This document shows positions 4,616-12,340 of a DNA stretch of 64,000 bases, one piece after another. The stretch spans positions 434,001-498,000 of the forward strand of contig JAOADG010000008.1 of assembly GCA_026417415.1 (NCBI GenBank), read 5' to 3'. The translations under genes were made by a program, and so were the position numbers. The notes beneath the pieces are model-generated. The model worked only from the letters and a program-made list of their open reading frames with translations. It was not told the origin of the DNA and did not search any database. The stretch is from a bacterium (lineage in GTDB: Bacteria; Electryoneota; JAOADG01). The first letter of the stretch is position 1; each line of letters starts with the position of its first letter.

Positions 4616-7600
4616 TTGGAAAAACTTGAAAGAATAAAAGAACTGAGCACTCTTCTAAAAAGAAAAGTTCTTGTCTTAGATGGTGCTACGGGAACTGCTT
4701 TAGAAGAACAAAAGCCAACGGTTGAAGAGTTTGGTGGTGAACGATACGAAGGATGCAATGAAGCATTGAATCTTTTTGCACCATATCGAATAGAACAACT
4801 TCACCACAGTTACATTCGTGCAGGAGCAGACATTATCGAAACCAATTCGTTTAATGGAAATGTTTTTGTTCTTTCAGAGTACGGATTGGAAAAAGAAATT
4901 ATTGAAATCAACCGATGTGCAGCTGAGATTGCTGTAAGGTCCGTAAATAAATATGCATCACAAAGAAATGTTTTTGTGGCAGGTGCGATGGGTCCTACCA
5001 ATCGGGCGATCTCTGTGACTGGAAATGTGACTTTTGATGAATTGGTTAATTCCTATTTTTTACAAGCACAAGGCTTACTGCTAGGAGGTGTAGATTACCT
5101 TCTTTTGGAAACACAGCAAGATACTGTAAATCTAAAAGCTGCTTGGATTGGTGTGTCTAAAGCAAAGCAATTGTTAAAAATGCTATCTATTCCAGTTGCA
5201 ATTTCCGTGACGATAGAACAGAATGGAACTATGTTGGCAGGACAAACCATTGATGCACTGTATTACACCATTTATCCCTACAATCCTTTTTACATTGGAC
5301 TTAACTGTGCTACGGGTCCAGAGAAAATGACGGATCACCTAAGGACCTTAGCTTTAATTTCAAACCACCCCATTGCATGTGTACCCAATGCTGGATTACC
5401 GGATGAAAATGGAAAGTATCAAGAGACCCCACAACAGTTTCAAGACGTTTTTCAGAGATTTTTAACAGAAGGATTTCTGAATTGTATAGGTGGTTGCTGC
5501 GGAACTACTGAACACCATATTCGCGTACTTAGAAAATTAGCTGATGAGTATGAACCAAAAAAAGTTTTTTATCCTGTGAGTAAATCTGTTCTTACTGGTG
5601 CTGAGACCTTACTCATCGATCAAGCAGTCAGGCCCATTTTAGTCGGTGAAAGAACCAATGTGATTGGTTCTAAAAGATTCAAAAACTTAATCTCTGAAAA
5701 CCGTTATGATGAAGCAGCAGAGATTGCTAAAGAGCAGGTGGAGAAAGGTGCGCACATCATTGATCTGTGTACAGCAGATCCTGATCGTGACGAACTTCAG
5801 GATTTTCTAAAAGTTCTCGAACCTATTCTCAGAAAAGTACGTGTTCCTATAATGATTGATACCACGGATCCTATTGTTGTGGAAAATGCTTTGAAAAGAA
5901 TAGGAGGAAGACCTGTAATCAATTCAATCAATTTTGAAGAAGGAGAAAAAAGATTAGAACAAATCGCTCCTTTGGCTAAAACCTATTCAGCAGCAATTGT
6001 ATTTGGGTTGATTGATGAGAATAAACAAATGGGTATGGCTGTAACTCTTGAAAGAAAATTAGAAATTGCTGAACGTGCATTTCGTACACTTACTGAGAAA
6101 TGGAATTTTTCACCCACCGATATTGTGTTTGATCCTTTGGTTTTTCCGTGTGGAACAGGTGATCCCAACTATAAAGGTTCAGCAAAAGCAACGATAGATG
6201 CGGTTCGTCTATTAAAACAAATGTACCCCGACTGTTTGACTTTACTTGGTATTTCCAATGTGAGTTTTGGGTTACCTGTATTGGGAAGAGAGATCCTTAA
6301 TTCGGTTTTTTTATACGAAAATGTACAATCAGGATTAGATTTAGCAATCGTTAATACTGCTGGTTTACAAAGATACGCTACCATTCCAAAAAATGAAATT
6401 GAATTGTGTTTAGATGTAATTTATGAAAGAAGTGAGACGGCTATAACCAATTTTGTGAACTACTATCGTGGAAAGGTAAAAGAAAAAGTACAGGATGATT
6501 GGTCAAAGCTTTCAAATGAAGAAAAAATCGCGAAATGTATTCTGGAAGGAATAAAGCGAGGTCTATTGGATTATATCAATGAAGAGTTAGAACGTCATCA
6601 TCCATTGGATATCATCAATGGACCTTTAATGAATGGAATGAAAGAAGTAGGAAAGTTATTTGCAGAAAATAAACTCATAGTGGCAGAGGTACTCGAATCG
6701 GCAGCAGCCATGAAGTATGCAGTGGATTATCTTCAAACCTTTTTGGAAAAAGGGAAAGAACATCATAAACGCGGAAAAATGGTTTTAGCTACTGTCAAAG
6801 GAGATGTACACGATATTGGTAAAAATTTAGTAGATATGATTTTTTCAAATAATGGTTATGAAGTGATTAATTTAGGAATTAAAGTATTACCTGATACACT
6901 AATTGAAGCAATCAATACTTATAAGCCTGATTTTATTGGATTATCAGGATTATTGGTAAGAAGTGCACAACAAATGGTGTCAACTGCAAAAGATTTTCGA
7001 AATGCGGGTATTGATATTCCTCTTTTGGTAGGCGGTGCTGCTTTAACAAAAAAATTCACTTTAACGAAAATAGCAACAGAATATAAAGGACCAACTTTCT
7101 ATGCAGCAACTGCTATGGAAGGTTTACAAATTGCAAATCGGTTGATGGACCCTCAGGAACGAGTAATTCTGGAAAATGAGTGGCGTGAAATACAACAGAA
7201 ATTGCTTACAGTACCAGAAGAAGATATCCAGTTTCAGCAAATGCCCGTAAGGCAAAAATGGGTAGAAACAGAAATTCCTCAACCCCCTGATCTTGATCCT
7301 CATGTCCTTACAAACATACCGCTTGATGAAGTTGTACCATTAATTAATCCGATGATGTTGTACGGAAAACATTTAGGACTGAAAAATTCATCAACTCGTT
7401 TGAATAATCCAAAGGACAAACAAGCTTGGGAATTACAATTGCAGGTGGAAAAAGTTTTACGACATTCTATACTTTTGGGTGTCATTCAACCACGTGTAGT
7501 TTATCAATTTTTTCAAGCTTATTCTGAAAACGAAACCATCCATATTTTATCTTCAAATGATATGAATCAAATGGTATCAATAACATTTCCACGTGAGAAA

Positions 7601-8068
7601 AATGAACCTTTTCGTTGTGCTGCAGATTGGATTATGCCGAAAAAAGAGAATCATTACGACAACTTAGCAATCTTTGTAACCAATGCAGGTTTACAAGTAC
7701 CCAAGTATGCAAAGGAATGGATGGATAAAGGTGAACTGCTCAATAGTCATATATTATCTGCTATTGCGATTGAGATCGCAGAAGCAACAGCAGAATGGAT
7801 ACACAAAAAAATTCGTCATTGGTGGGGATACCACGATAAAGAAAAAATGACCTTTCAGGATTACTTGAAATGTAATTATCGCGGTATTCGCTTATCCTTT
7901 GGTTACCCCGCCTGTCCGCGTTTAGAAGATCAACAGATCATATTTCAATTGTTACAACCAGAAAAAAGTATCGGAGTAAAATTGACAGAAGAATATATGA
8001 TGGAACCTGAAGCATCAGTCAGTGCGATCGTTTTTCACCATCCGAATGCTGAATACTTTTCAGTTTAA
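4616..8068 (+). CDS. metH: Cobalamin-dependent methionine synthase
   Basis: 1150 residues, all four MetH modules in order. Residues 1-310 form the homocysteine-binding barrel with zinc cysteines in GLNCATGP (about 231) and GGCCGTT (294-295). Residues about 340-600 are the methyltetrahydrofolate (pterin) domain, VGERTNVIGSKRF. Residues about 630-860 are the cobalamin module, with the base-off motif GDVHDIGKN whose His is near 732. Residues about 900-1150 are the SAM reactivation domain with RLSFGYPACP. It transfers methyl from methyl-THF to homocysteine. The start is TTG with an upstream AAGGA; no ATG lies near the conserved N-terminus. No B12 or SAM riboswitch is visible in the short leader. 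Monocistronic. Confidence 0.97.
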   Translation: MEKLERIKELSTLLKRKVLVLDGATGTALEEQKPTVEEFGGERYEGCNEALNLFAPYRIEQLHHSYIRAGADIIETNSFNGNVFVLSEYGLEKEIIEINRCAAEIAVRSVNKYASQRNVFVAGAMGPTNRAISVTGNVTFDELVNSYFLQAQGLLLGGVDYLLLETQQDTVNLKAAWIGVSKAKQLLKMLSIPVAISVTIEQNGTMLAGQTIDALYYTIYPYNPFYIGLNCATGPEKMTDHLRTLALISNHPIACVPNAGLPDENGKYQETPQQFQDVFQRFLTEGFLNCIGGCCGTTEHHIRVLRKLADEYEPKKVFYPVSKSVLTGAETLLIDQAVRPILVGERTNVIGSKRFKNLISENRYDEAAEIAKEQVEKGAHIIDLCTADPDRDELQDFLKVLEPILRKVRVPIMIDTTDPIVVENALKRIGGRPVINSINFEEGEKRLEQIAPLAKTYSAAIVFGLIDENKQMGMAVTLERKLEIAERAFRTLTEKWNFSPTDIVFDPLVFPCGTGDPNYKGSAKATIDAVRLLKQMYPDCLTLLGISNVSFGLPVLGREILNSVFLYENVQSGLDLAIVNTAGLQRYATIPKNEIELCLDVIYERSETAITNFVNYYRGKVKEKVQDDWSKLSNEEKIAKCILEGIKRGLLDYINEELERHHPLDIINGPLMNGMKEVGKLFAENKLIVAEVLESAAAMKYAVDYLQTFLEKGKEHHKRGKMVLATVKGDVHDIGKNLVDMIFSNNGYEVINLGIKVLPDTLIEAINTYKPDFIGLSGLLVRSAQQMVSTAKDFRNAGIDIPLLVGGAALTKKFTLTKIATEYKGPTFYAATAMEGLQIANRLMDPQERVILENEWREIQQKLLTVPEEDIQFQQMPVRQKWVETEIPQPPDLDPHVLTNIPLDEVVPLINPMMLYGKHLGLKNSSTRLNNPKDKQAWELQLQVEKVLRHSILLGVIQPRVVYQFFQAYSENETIHILSSNDMNQMVSITFPREKNEPFRCAADWIMPKKENHYDNLAIFVTNAGLQVPKYAKEWMDKGELLNSHILSAIAIEIAEATAEWIHKKIRHWWGYHDKEKMTFQDYLKCNYRGIRLSFGYPACPRLEDQQIIFQLLQPEKSIGVKLTEEYMMEPEASVSAIVFHHPNAEYFSV

Positions 8069-8289: not shown

Positions 8290-9333
8290 ATGTTATTTAG
8301 AATAATTAAAAAAGAAGATTTCAAAACGTTTGTAAATCTTATGTTACAAACAACTGAAGTGATTGCGCCTAAGTTCATTAAGAACAATGCCAAGGGAAAG
8401 CCCATACATCAATTTTTACCAATATCAAACTATGATGAAATGGTATTGGATTATGAAAAATGTGAATTCTCTGCAAAGACCTACTTTTTACCCTATAAAA
8501 ATACTTTAAGTACTTTTCATATGAAGGATCACGATTGGACGCAGGAAATTCAGTATCGCATTCAACCTCGGGCTATTTTTGGTTTACATCCTTGTGATAT
8601 AAATGCTTTAGTCCGATTAGACAAAGTGTTTGCAAGAGATTTTTATCCCAACCCTTACTACATATCTAGACGAAAGAACACCTTTATTGTGGGGATTGAT
8701 CACTTGCCTTGCGATGATGGTTTCTGCCACGCAATTAACGCCAATCATATTACTCATGGATTTGATCTGTTTCTAACCGATTTAGGGGATCGCTATTTTG
8801 TGAAAATCAACTCTGACCGTGCATTTATGGCAATAAGTGAAGTTCCTATTCAAGAAATCACTGACGAAGATACAAAAGATTATTTAGCAGTTCGAAAACA
8901 AATTTCACAATCCTACAAAGTTTCAGTAAAAACAGACGATTTACCCAATTTGTTAGACATTGAATTTGAATCCAAGGTATGGAAAAAATGGGGAGATAAG
9001 TGTCTAAATTGCGGGACCTGTGCGATGGTTTGTCCTACTTGCTATTGTTATGGAGTCACCGAGCGTGTTTCAATGGATCACTCAACTGGTAAAAAAATTG
9101 CCTATCTCTACTCTTGCAATCTCCTCGATTTTGCGATGGTGGCAGGTGGACACAACTTTCGTCCGAACCAAGAAACGCGCCTCAAGTATCGTTATTACCA
9201 TCAACATCGTGGGTTTGTAGAATCCTATGGTGAACCTATGTGTGTCGGTTGCAATCGTTGCGGAAGATCTTGTCTTGCAGGAATTGATCCAGTGAACGTT
9301 ATCCGCGACTTGCATGAGGAGGAAAAATTATGA
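8290..9333 (+). CDS. hydB: Group 3b [NiFe] hydrogenase beta subunit, double 4Fe-4S protein
   Basis: 347 residues, cytoplasmic. The C-terminal third holds two ferredoxin-type clusters: [14 protein letters not shown] from residue 238 and [11 protein letters not shown] from residue 318. The N-terminal 230 residues match the HydB/anaerobic sulfite reductase A family ([12 protein letters not shown]). It would carry electrons between the flavin subunit and the small subunit's clusters. The gene order beta-gamma-delta-alpha is that of Pyrococcus furiosus soluble hydrogenase I. The SD TAGAGGA precedes the ATG. Its stop overlaps the next start (ATGA). Confidence 0.93.
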
Positions 9334-10235
9334 GATTGTTTACACCTTACGACGTCACTAAAGAAAGCGATATGCTAATGCCTTTGGAATTTACCAGAGC
9401 AAATCGCTTGATGCACGTTGATAAAACTTACAAAGCAGAAATTACAAATATTATTCGTTTAACCGAGATGGAAAAACTGTTCCATATCCGAATTATCAAT
9501 GAAGAAGAACGTGCTCGCTTTTCGTTTCTACCAGGGCAGTTTGTAATGCTTGAATTACCCGGTTACGGAGAAGTACCCATTTCAATTTCCGGTTCACCTT
9601 CCAATCGTGGATACATTGAACTGTGTATCCGTAAAGCAGGAATTGTAACTTCAATCTTACATAAAGCTCGCAGAGGGGCAAAAGTCGGTATCCGTGGTCC
9701 CTTTGGAAATAGTTTTCCTATGGAGAAAATGAAAGGAAACAATATTCTTTTAATTGCAGGTGGATTGGGAATGGCGCCTTTACGTGCACCATTGTTTTAC
9801 GTCACGGAAAATCGTTCCGAATATCAAGACGTCCACATTCTTTATGGTACCAGAACACCAGACCAATTGCTGTTTACTTATCAATATGATGAGTGGAAAC
9901 GAATTGATGATATCAATCTCCAAATCATAGTTGAAAAACCAGACATCACTTGGTCTGGAAAAGTAGGAATGATCACCAAATTATTGGACGAATTACCAAT
10001 CAAACCATTAGAAACCTATGCAATTGTTTGTGGTCCTCCAGTTATGTTTAAGTTTGTGTGCAACCGTTTGCGTCAATTTGGAATTCCCATGCATCGTATG
10101 TTTGTATCACTGGAAAGACGAATGCATTGCGGTATGGGAAAATGTTGTCGCTGCAACATCGGTTCTACTTTCATTTGTGTGGATGGACCTGTGTTCGATT
10201 ACTGGTCAGTTCTCAATTTAAAAGAAGCTATCTAA
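9330..10235 (+). CDS. hydG: Group 3b hydrogenase gamma subunit, FAD/NAD(P)-binding oxidoreductase
   Basis: 301 residues of the ferredoxin-NADP reductase fold. An FAD-binding barrel spans residues about 30-125, with the flavin loop [11 protein letters not shown] nucleotide-binding domain follows with [13 protein letters not shown]-terminal Cys-rich segment (CGMGKCCRC then ICVDGPVF) binds a 2Fe-2S cluster. It exchanges electrons with NAD(P)H; NAD versus NADP preference cannot be told reliably. It overlaps hydB by four bases, with a strong GAGGAGG SD inside the end of hydB. Related proteins are HydG and the sulfide dehydrogenase/dihydroorotate dehydrogenase electron-transfer subunits. Confidence 0.93.
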
Positions 10236-10247
10236 GGAGGGATTACA

Positions 10248-11009
10248 ATGAAATACCTATTTATGGAATCCAAGCGTCCGAAGGTAGCTGTATTTGATTT
10301 TACGGATTGTGAAGGTTGTGAACTACAATTTGCAAATAAAGAAGAAACTTTGGTGGATTTTCTAAAAGCCATTGATATTGTCAATTTTCGTGAAGTTATG
10401 TCTGAAAAAAGCGATGAATACGACATTGCTTTTATAGAAGGATCGATTTCCAGAGCAGATGAAATTGAGCGACTTTTGACCATACGTCAGAAAGCCAAAT
10501 TTCTTATTGCTTTGGGTTCTTGTGCCTGCTTTGGTGGTGTTAACCGAATGAAAAATAAATTTCCAATGTCCGATGTTAATAAAGAGGTCTATGGTGAAAC
10601 CCCTAAAGAAACATTACCTGTAAGATCTATCAAAGAACTTGTCCATGTTGATTTTGAAATACCGGGTTGTCCAGTTAGTAAAGCAGAAGTAGAAAGAATT
10701 GTTCAACACATTATTTGGGAAGTGCCCTATCAATTTCCTGTGTATCCGGTATGTTTTGAATGCAAACAACGATTTACCATTTGTCGTTTTGAACTGGGTG
10801 AGTTGTGTTTGGGACCCGTATCTGCAGGTGGATGCGATGCACCATGCCCTGCAGGGGGAACACCTTGTTGGGGGTGTAGAGGAATTTGTGCTGCACCAAA
10901 TTTTCAAGAATTTTTCAATCTTGCAAAAGAACGTGGATTTTCAAAAGAAGAAGTAATTGAACGAATGGACTTTTTTGGAGGATTTCGTTCTGTTACAGGG
11001 AGTAAGTAA
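10248..11009 (+). CDS. hydD: Group 3b [NiFe] hydrogenase small (delta) subunit
   Basis: 253 residues of the NADH:ubiquinone oxidoreductase 20-kDa/hydrogenase small-subunit fold. Proximal 4Fe-4S ligands are visible as DCEGCEL (Cys 21 and 24), GSCACFGG and PGCPVSK. The C-terminal quarter is unusually rich in cysteine (CFECKQR, CLGPVSAGGCDAPCPAGGTPCWGC), supplying medial and distal clusters as in archaeal soluble hydrogenases. There is no Tat signal, so it is cytoplasmic. The SD AAGGAGGG lies seven bases before the ATG. It forms the heterodimer core with the large subunit encoded just downstream. Confidence 0.94.
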   Translation: MKYLFMESKRPKVAVFDFTDCEGCELQFANKEETLVDFLKAIDIVNFREVMSEKSDEYDIAFIEGSISRADEIERLLTIRQKAKFLIALGSCACFGGVNRMKNKFPMSDVNKEVYGETPKETLPVRSIKELVHVDFEIPGCPVSKAEVERIVQHIIWEVPYQFPVYPVCFECKQRFTICRFELGELCLGPVSAGGCDAPCPAGGTPCWGCRGICAAPNFQEFFNLAKERGFSKEEVIERMDFFGGFRSVTGSK

Positions 11010-11010
11010 A

Positions 11011-12288
11011 ATGAAAATCAATTTGAATGTGGATGTTCATCATTTAACACGTGTAGAAGGTCACGGTAATATCATTGTGAAAGTTGAAAAAGGCGAAATT
11101 AAACAAGCCAGCTGGGAAGTTGTTGAAACCCCAAGATATTTTGAAGCCATTTTAAGAGGGCAAAGATACGACGCTGCTGGAATTCTAACAGCAAGAATAT
11201 GTGGAATCTGTTCAATAGGACATTGCCTTGCAAGCATTCGTGCAACAGAACATGCATTTGGAATAGAAATTCCAGAAATTGCTAAAAAGTTAAGAATGTT
11301 AGCAAAACATGGCGAAACTTTACAATCCCATTTTTTGCACCTTTTCTTTTTGGCTGCTCCAGATTTTATTAACCTAAAAAGTGTCATTCCGTTGTTAGAA
11401 AAGAACCCACAGGTAGTTGCAATTGCTGCCCGTTTGAAAGGATTGGCAAACAATTTATGCGATTTAGTAGCAGGACGAACGACTCATCCTGTCTCTCTAC
11501 ATGTAGGAGGAGTGTCAAACTTTCCAGATAAACGGAAATTATCATTGTTCAAAGAACAGTTAAAACAATCTATTCCAGATTTACATGCTACTGTTGATTT
11601 GTTTCGTACATTTGAAATTCCTGATTTCGTGCGTGAGACCGAATTCGTTTCACTTAAAGGAGTGGACGAATATCCATTTATTGGTGGCAATTTAATTTCA
11701 AGTGATGGTATTGAAATGAAAGAGCATGAGTATAGGAAGATGACCAATGAATTTGTTGTTGAACACAGTACTTCCAAATGGTGTAGGTTAAGTCGTGAAT
11801 CTTTTGCTGTAGGGGCTTTGGCAAGGTTGAACAACAATTATACATTATTACACCCAGAAGCAAAGAAAGTGGCAGAAACATTTGGATTAAAACCGGTTCA
11901 TCATAATCCCTTTATGAACAATGTTGCCCAATTGGTTGAAGTTGTTCATTGTACCTACGATTCTATTCGTCTGATTAATGAGATCTTAGAATATCCTGAA
12001 AACACTCCTACGATGGTTAAATTTGAACCAAAAGAAGGTGTGGGTGTTGGAGCGGTTGAAGTACCTCGAGGGATTTTATACCATGAATATGAGTACAATC
12101 AAAAGGGAAGAATAGTGAAAGCCAATTGTATTATCCCAACAACTCAAAATAACGCCAACATTCATTATGATATCTATGATTTGGTGAGGAAAAACGTACA
12201 AAAAGGTATGACTGATGAAAAATTGGAATTGTTATGTTCTATGCTCGTGCGTGCCTATGATCCTTGCATTTCTTGTTCTGTACATTAA
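11011..12288 (+). CDS. hydA: Group 3b [NiFe] hydrogenase large (alpha) subunit, no C-terminal extension
   Basis: 425 residues. Nickel-binding motif L1 is RICGICSIGH (Cys 64 and 67) and L2 is DPCISCSVH at 417-425. The stop codon follows the L2 histidine directly. Most large subunits carry a C-terminal peptide beyond this His that an endopeptidase removes after nickel insertion; here nothing is left to cleave. A reading from 10957 would overlap hydD by 53 bp; ATG 11011 follows AGGGAG one base after hydD and fits family starts. Activity predicted: reversible H2 oxidation/evolution with NAD(P)H, possibly also sulfur reduction. Hyp maturation genes are not in the window. Last gene of the operon, followed by a terminator. 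Confidence 0.95.
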   Translation: MKINLNVDVHHLTRVEGHGNIIVKVEKGEIKQASWEVVETPRYFEAILRGQRYDAAGILTARICGICSIGHCLASIRATEHAFGIEIPEIAKKLRMLAKHGETLQSHFLHLFFLAAPDFINLKSVIPLLEKNPQVVAIAARLKGLANNLCDLVAGRTTHPVSLHVGGVSNFPDKRKLSLFKEQLKQSIPDLHATVDLFRTFEIPDFVRETEFVSLKGVDEYPFIGGNLISSDGIEMKEHEYRKMTNEFVVEHSTSKWCRLSRESFAVGALARLNNNYTLLHPEAKKVAETFGLKPVHHNPFMNNVAQLVEVVHCTYDSIRLINEILEYPENTPTMVKFEPKEGVGVGAVEVPRGILYHEYEYNQKGRIVKANCIIPTTQNNANIHYDIYDLVRKNVQKGMTDEKLELLCSMLVRAYDPCISCSVH

Positions 12289-12316: not shown

Positions 12317-12340
12317 ACGGGGCGATGAGCCCCGTTTTTT
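12317..12340 (+). terminator. Rho-independent terminator of hydBGDA
   Basis: ACGGGGC-gatga-GCCCCGT forms a 7-bp GC-rich stem with a 5-base loop, followed by TTTTT, 28 bp after the hydA stop. Confidence 0.92.

Follow-up and report, generated by a model that had tools for sequence, protein, structure and literature searches.

The closest described systems are soluble hydrogenase I (SHI) of Pyrococcus furiosus, a group 3b [NiFe]-hydrogenase of the HydBGDA type, and the Thermococcus kodakarensis enzyme with the large subunit HyhL. The large subunit of SHI ends in a four-residue tail, VVRL, which is removed by the protease FrxA (PMC2865534), and the PDB holds both a 428-residue chain of precursor length and a mature chain of 424 residues. 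Recombinant SHI is inactive without a suitable protease, which has to be co-expressed when the enzyme is produced in E. coli (PMC2865534). In HyhL, according to the account of Kwon et al. (2018) given in PMC7294309, the tail occupies the place of the N-terminus, leaving the latter free to bind HypA.

Large subunits that naturally have no tail have been described for groups 2b, 2d, 4c, 4e and 4g (PMC7294309). The regulatory hydrogenase of Ralstonia eutropha, one of the H2 sensors of groups 2b/2d, relies on the standard Hyp proteins for its maturation (PMC7294309), and the large subunits of the Ech-type (4e), CODH-linked (4c) and group 4g enzymes are likewise tailless (PMC7294309). When the tail was deleted by engineering, R. 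eutropha SH and E. coli Hyd-2 were nickel-free (PMC7294309). MBHproc of R. eutropha, from which the tail was also deleted, is active and shows that the cofactor can be inserted and the enzyme can work without it (PMC7294309). Precedents of the natural and the engineered kind are thus available (PMC7294309, PMC7654741), and why most [NiFe]-hydrogenases carry a cleavable tail and some none is an open question (PMC7294309).

The window, i.e. the whole stretch of 64,000 nucleotides that was analysed, contains a hydB-hydG-hydD-hydA operon spanning positions 8290-12288, in which hydA is the final gene. Its features are as follows:

8290-9333, + strand: hydB, 4Fe-4S subunit
9330-10235, + strand: hydG, FAD/NAD(P)-binding subunit
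10248-11009, + strand: hydD, small subunit
11011-12288, + strand: hydA, tailless large subunit of a group 3b [NiFe]-hydrogenase, 425 aa (ATG at 11011, TAA at 12286-12288)
12259-12285, + strand: L2 motif DPCISCSVH, intact, residues 417-425 at the extreme C-terminus of HydA
12286-12288, + strand: TAA stop right behind the L2 histidine (TAA, TAG or TGA in other members of the clade described below)
12318-12340, + strand: terminator-like hairpin 3' of hydA, CGGGGC-GATGA-GCCCCG and a T run

A full-length metH gene (methionine synthase, 4616-8068) immediately precedes the operon and has the same orientation; no metH was seen next to the other tailless loci, so it is probably a chance neighbour.

The beta-gamma-delta-alpha gene order, with Fe-S and FAD/NAD(P) subunits, is that of group 3b (HydBGDA / sulfhydrogenase), and all four genes are also found in 12 tailless relatives. 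The top NCBIfam matches of HydA, ShyA (3.4e-78) and HydA (4.1e-78), are P. furiosus sulfhydrogenase alpha subunits, at 263 bits each and under the narrow equivalog cut-offs. Its best relatives in the PDB are T. kodakarensis HyhL and P. furiosus SHI, with an alignment that runs to the last histidine. Sequence, operon and the four ligand cysteines together assign the predicted HydA to group 3b, and from this membership an NAD(P)(H)-linked hydrogenase is predicted.

As read from the window, the C-terminus of HydA is LVRAYDPCISCSVH, then a stop; the last residues of the 425-residue protein are RAYDPCISCSVH, and TAA follows immediately. The frame therefore ends directly after DPCISCSVH, as the earlier note had stated, and the VVRL tail which that note gives for P. 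furiosus is correct. SHI and HyhL have the same four-subunit architecture and an identical RAYDPCISCSVH terminus, with the difference that SHI continues into the tail cut by FrxA while HydA of the window has no tail. The L1 motif is also intact (RICGIC, residues 62-67). The hairpin at 12318-12340 is GC-rich and followed by a U run, which is typical of an intrinsic terminator, and its folding z-score is -4.4.

Comparison of 108 group 3b large subunits, 28 without and 80 with a tail, shows that the tailed sequences extend 4-26 residues past the histidine. The tailless ones fall, with two exceptions, into one clade of 26 members (55-100% identity), which is nested inside the tail-bearing group 3b sequences and is supported by an SH-aLRT value of 100, or by 100/100 (bootstrap/SH-aLRT) in a tree with 15 members. 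All 26 members stop at the same histidine. They belong to the small phylum of the window and to Desulfobacterota, and include another genome from the family of the window (73% identity) and two more genomes of the same phylum, all with the identical end residue, six named genomes from Desulfobacula, Desulforapulum and their relatives (65-67% identity), which share it, and further members retrieved by a search of the order that holds the Desulfobacula genome. On this phylogenetic evidence, taillessness is a stable, inherited trait of the clade. Only 4 of the 39 genomes of the window's phylum carry the tailless hydA; since their sequences nest among those of Desulfobacterota, the tree suggests horizontal transfer of the enzyme between the phyla.

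The two remaining tailless sequences, from genomes G485 (47% identity) and G457 (41%), each stand among tailed relatives and represent separate losses. A single loss, as derived from the 15-sequence tree, was abandoned when wider sampling brought in these two, and the phylogeny now points to at least three losses of the tail within group 3b. The nearest relative of the G485 sequence, in G642, has a tail of just four residues (CIFI) and no adjacent protease gene.

Of the 70 tailed loci with enough flank, 31 have a gene for a TIGR00072-type maturation protease shortly after hydA, all seven of the nearest tailed relatives among them; in the closest tailed relative the tail reads LLKVEFV. None of the 23 tailless loci for which 3 kb of flank or more is available has a protease gene at this position; Fisher's test gives p = 2e-5 for the difference and ignores phylogeny. 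The genome of the window encodes exactly one TIGR00072 protease (G000:C37:19005-19406, 65 bits); the gene before it encodes a group 3c (VhuA-like) large subunit whose tail is 26 residues long. An initial conclusion that the genome has no protease was dropped, because the PF01750 (HycI) search on which it was based proved to be a false negative; surveys that use PF01750 only may undercount such enzymes. Of the endopeptidases for which the earlier note proposed a search (HycI/FrxA-type), none is linked to the hydA operon and one is present in the genome, beside the tailed group 3c subunit.

In 15 tailless genomes, 24 proteases above the cut-off were counted versus 23 other, non-3b large subunits with tails (two of these tails, in G002:C68 and in the second large subunit of G006:C439, were deduced from near relatives). 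At least one protease is present in 14 of the 15 genomes, and in 14 of the 15 the number of proteases equals that of tailed large subunits. Twelve genomes whose sole strong large subunit is a tailed 3b enzyme served as a control, and every one of them has exactly one protease. These counts are indirect evidence, since hydrogenase proteases can serve more than one hydrogenase (PMC7654741). In one genome, G377, no protease candidate was found; it carries hypD, hypE and hypF, and both of its large subunits, the 3b enzyme and one of complex I-like type, lack a tail. As a protease-free tailless genome G377 is by itself no more than suggestive, given that its completeness is not established and that no protease was found in 2 of the 30 tailed control genomes either. 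Its complex I-like large subunit (G377:C20, 6373-7446; 358 aa) ends in SIDPCISCTER, and its gene precedes the tailless hydA by about 12.5 kb. In another genome (G189:C2:190000-204000) a second large subunit, possibly of the H2-sensor type, ends tailless in SFDPCLACAVH, consistent with the protease tally.

The genes hypA, hypB, hypC, hypD, hypE and hypF are all present in the genome of the window, at G000:C1. In G001, the tailless operon is followed immediately by a hypF-like gene and hypD, and hypB comes slightly later.

In the preferred reading, to which we assign a probability of roughly 0.8, this HydBGDA lineage has lost both the tail and the operonic protease for good, and HydA would mature without proteolysis under another form of quality control. 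That nothing is left to cleave and the protease is bypassed, as the earlier note proposed, is well supported by the comparative evidence, namely the conserved tailless state, the missing linked protease and protease numbers that match the other, tailed hydrogenases of the same genomes. The alternative that a normal tail exists but is concealed, by a mistake in sequencing or assembly or because the stop is read through, can be given a negligible probability, and no evidence in its favour was found. The earlier note had considered an error at the stop codon and relatives with a normal tail just past it; in fact the end is identical in 26 independent clade members, all of them tailless, which use TAA, TAG and TGA as stops and are followed by DNA that is unrelated from one member to another. 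The same observations rule out a hidden frameshift and recoding of the stop codon, and the terminator-like hairpin stands immediately behind hydA of the window.

Two other alternatives accept the loss of the tail. Tailless HydA might be nickel-free and inactive as a hydrogenase, with another role such as that of an NAD(P)-linked scaffold, a state for which the genetically tailless R. eutropha SH and E. coli Hyd-2, which assemble without nickel (PMC7294309), provide a model. However, the four NiFe-ligand cysteines of L1 and L2 and the terminal histidine are invariant across the full-length tailless sequences, and an omega of about 0.1 among close members indicates strong purifying selection, so that the tailless group 3b enzymes look functional; the hyp genes are also retained, in G001 right beside the operon. 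The scaffold is accordingly judged very improbable. Somewhat less so, though still unlikely, is a hydrogenase protease that continues to act as a non-cutting chaperone or nickel sensor. A maturation protease of Salmonella still binds a large subunit from which its peptide is missing, and a function other than cleavage has been proposed (PMC7654741); most of the tailless genomes that were checked could supply such a protein, and in the window's genome the candidate would be the protease encoded next to the group 3c hydrogenase. Yet none of the proteases is linked to a tailless locus, the tailed large subunits of other types account for their number, and G377 apparently has none.

Under the preferred reading of maturation without a cut, HypC, HypD, HypE and HypF would assemble the Fe(CN)2CO unit and deliver it to HydA, and HypA and HypB would put nickel into a subunit synthesised at its mature length. 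The active site would then close without a proteolytic gate. We infer that the enzyme is active and that it can be loaded with nickel without any protease. A different nickel-loading checkpoint, as the earlier note envisaged, is possible: quality control may reside in the cofactor-dependent folding of the C-terminal arm and in a small subunit that accepts only loaded HydA, on the model of what has been proposed for two R. eutropha enzymes, the regulatory hydrogenase and the tail-deleted MBHproc. The most economical checkpoint would be proofreading by the small subunit. Tailless HydA would also have to free its N-terminus for HypA by means other than the tail.

Clade-specific changes in HydA are few (T40, G217, G225, S255 and a two-residue insertion near 397), and these are candidates for compensation. 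The lack of nickel in the engineered SH and Hyd-2 indicates that taillessness can harm enzymes not adapted to it; this, and the small number of changes that could compensate, count against the preferred reading. V424 was rejected as a marker of the clade; it is nearly fixed there, but the P. furiosus enzyme, which has a tail, shares it. In the small subunit, the search for a signature that could explain proofreading singled out just two positions, 4 (L) and 149 (E for L/V), with no convincing reading. A more far-reaching version, in which proteolysis was lost at least three times in group 3b, the nickel check of the main lineage falls to a re-tuned fold of the N- and C-terminal parts together with the small subunit, and some hosts are free of hydrogenase proteases, is tentative, and taken as a whole we would sooner doubt it than adopt it.

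Natural taillessness as such is not unique to this lineage, which qualifies the context in which the bypass was first proposed: other groups are tailless and use the ordinary Hyp machinery (PMC7294309). The route predicted for HydA of the window resembles that of the R. eutropha regulatory hydrogenase, but the latter is an H2 sensor of another phylogenetic group, whereas the enzyme of the window is of the NAD(P)-linked type with HydB and HydG. The tailless enzymes of groups 4e, 4c and 4g are complex I-like and have operons unrelated to that of the window, and the second large subunit of G377 is of that general type. MBHproc, in turn, is artificial and lowered the enzyme yield, while the loss in the window's clade is natural and evolutionarily stable. 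A description of tailless group 3b enzymes was not found in the open-access literature, an absence that is not proof of novelty.

Tailed and tailless forms within one subgroup, about 50% identical and with the same operon and Hyp machinery, constitute with at least three losses a natural experiment, and the purpose of the cut can therefore be tested by swapping tails between close relatives. Since SHI requires a co-expressed protease in E. coli (PMC2865534), tailless group 3b enzymes might be simpler to make in other hosts.

In-frame TGA codons were observed in two other places. Group 3c-like large subunits of Desulfobacterota (L197, L198, L191 and L186) have normal tails and contain a TGA in L2 (DPU), which is probably read as selenocysteine. 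Two hypD genes (G377:C20:58369-59457 and G004:C53:19423-20499) also have one in-frame TGA each, and perhaps encode a selenocysteine-containing HypD.
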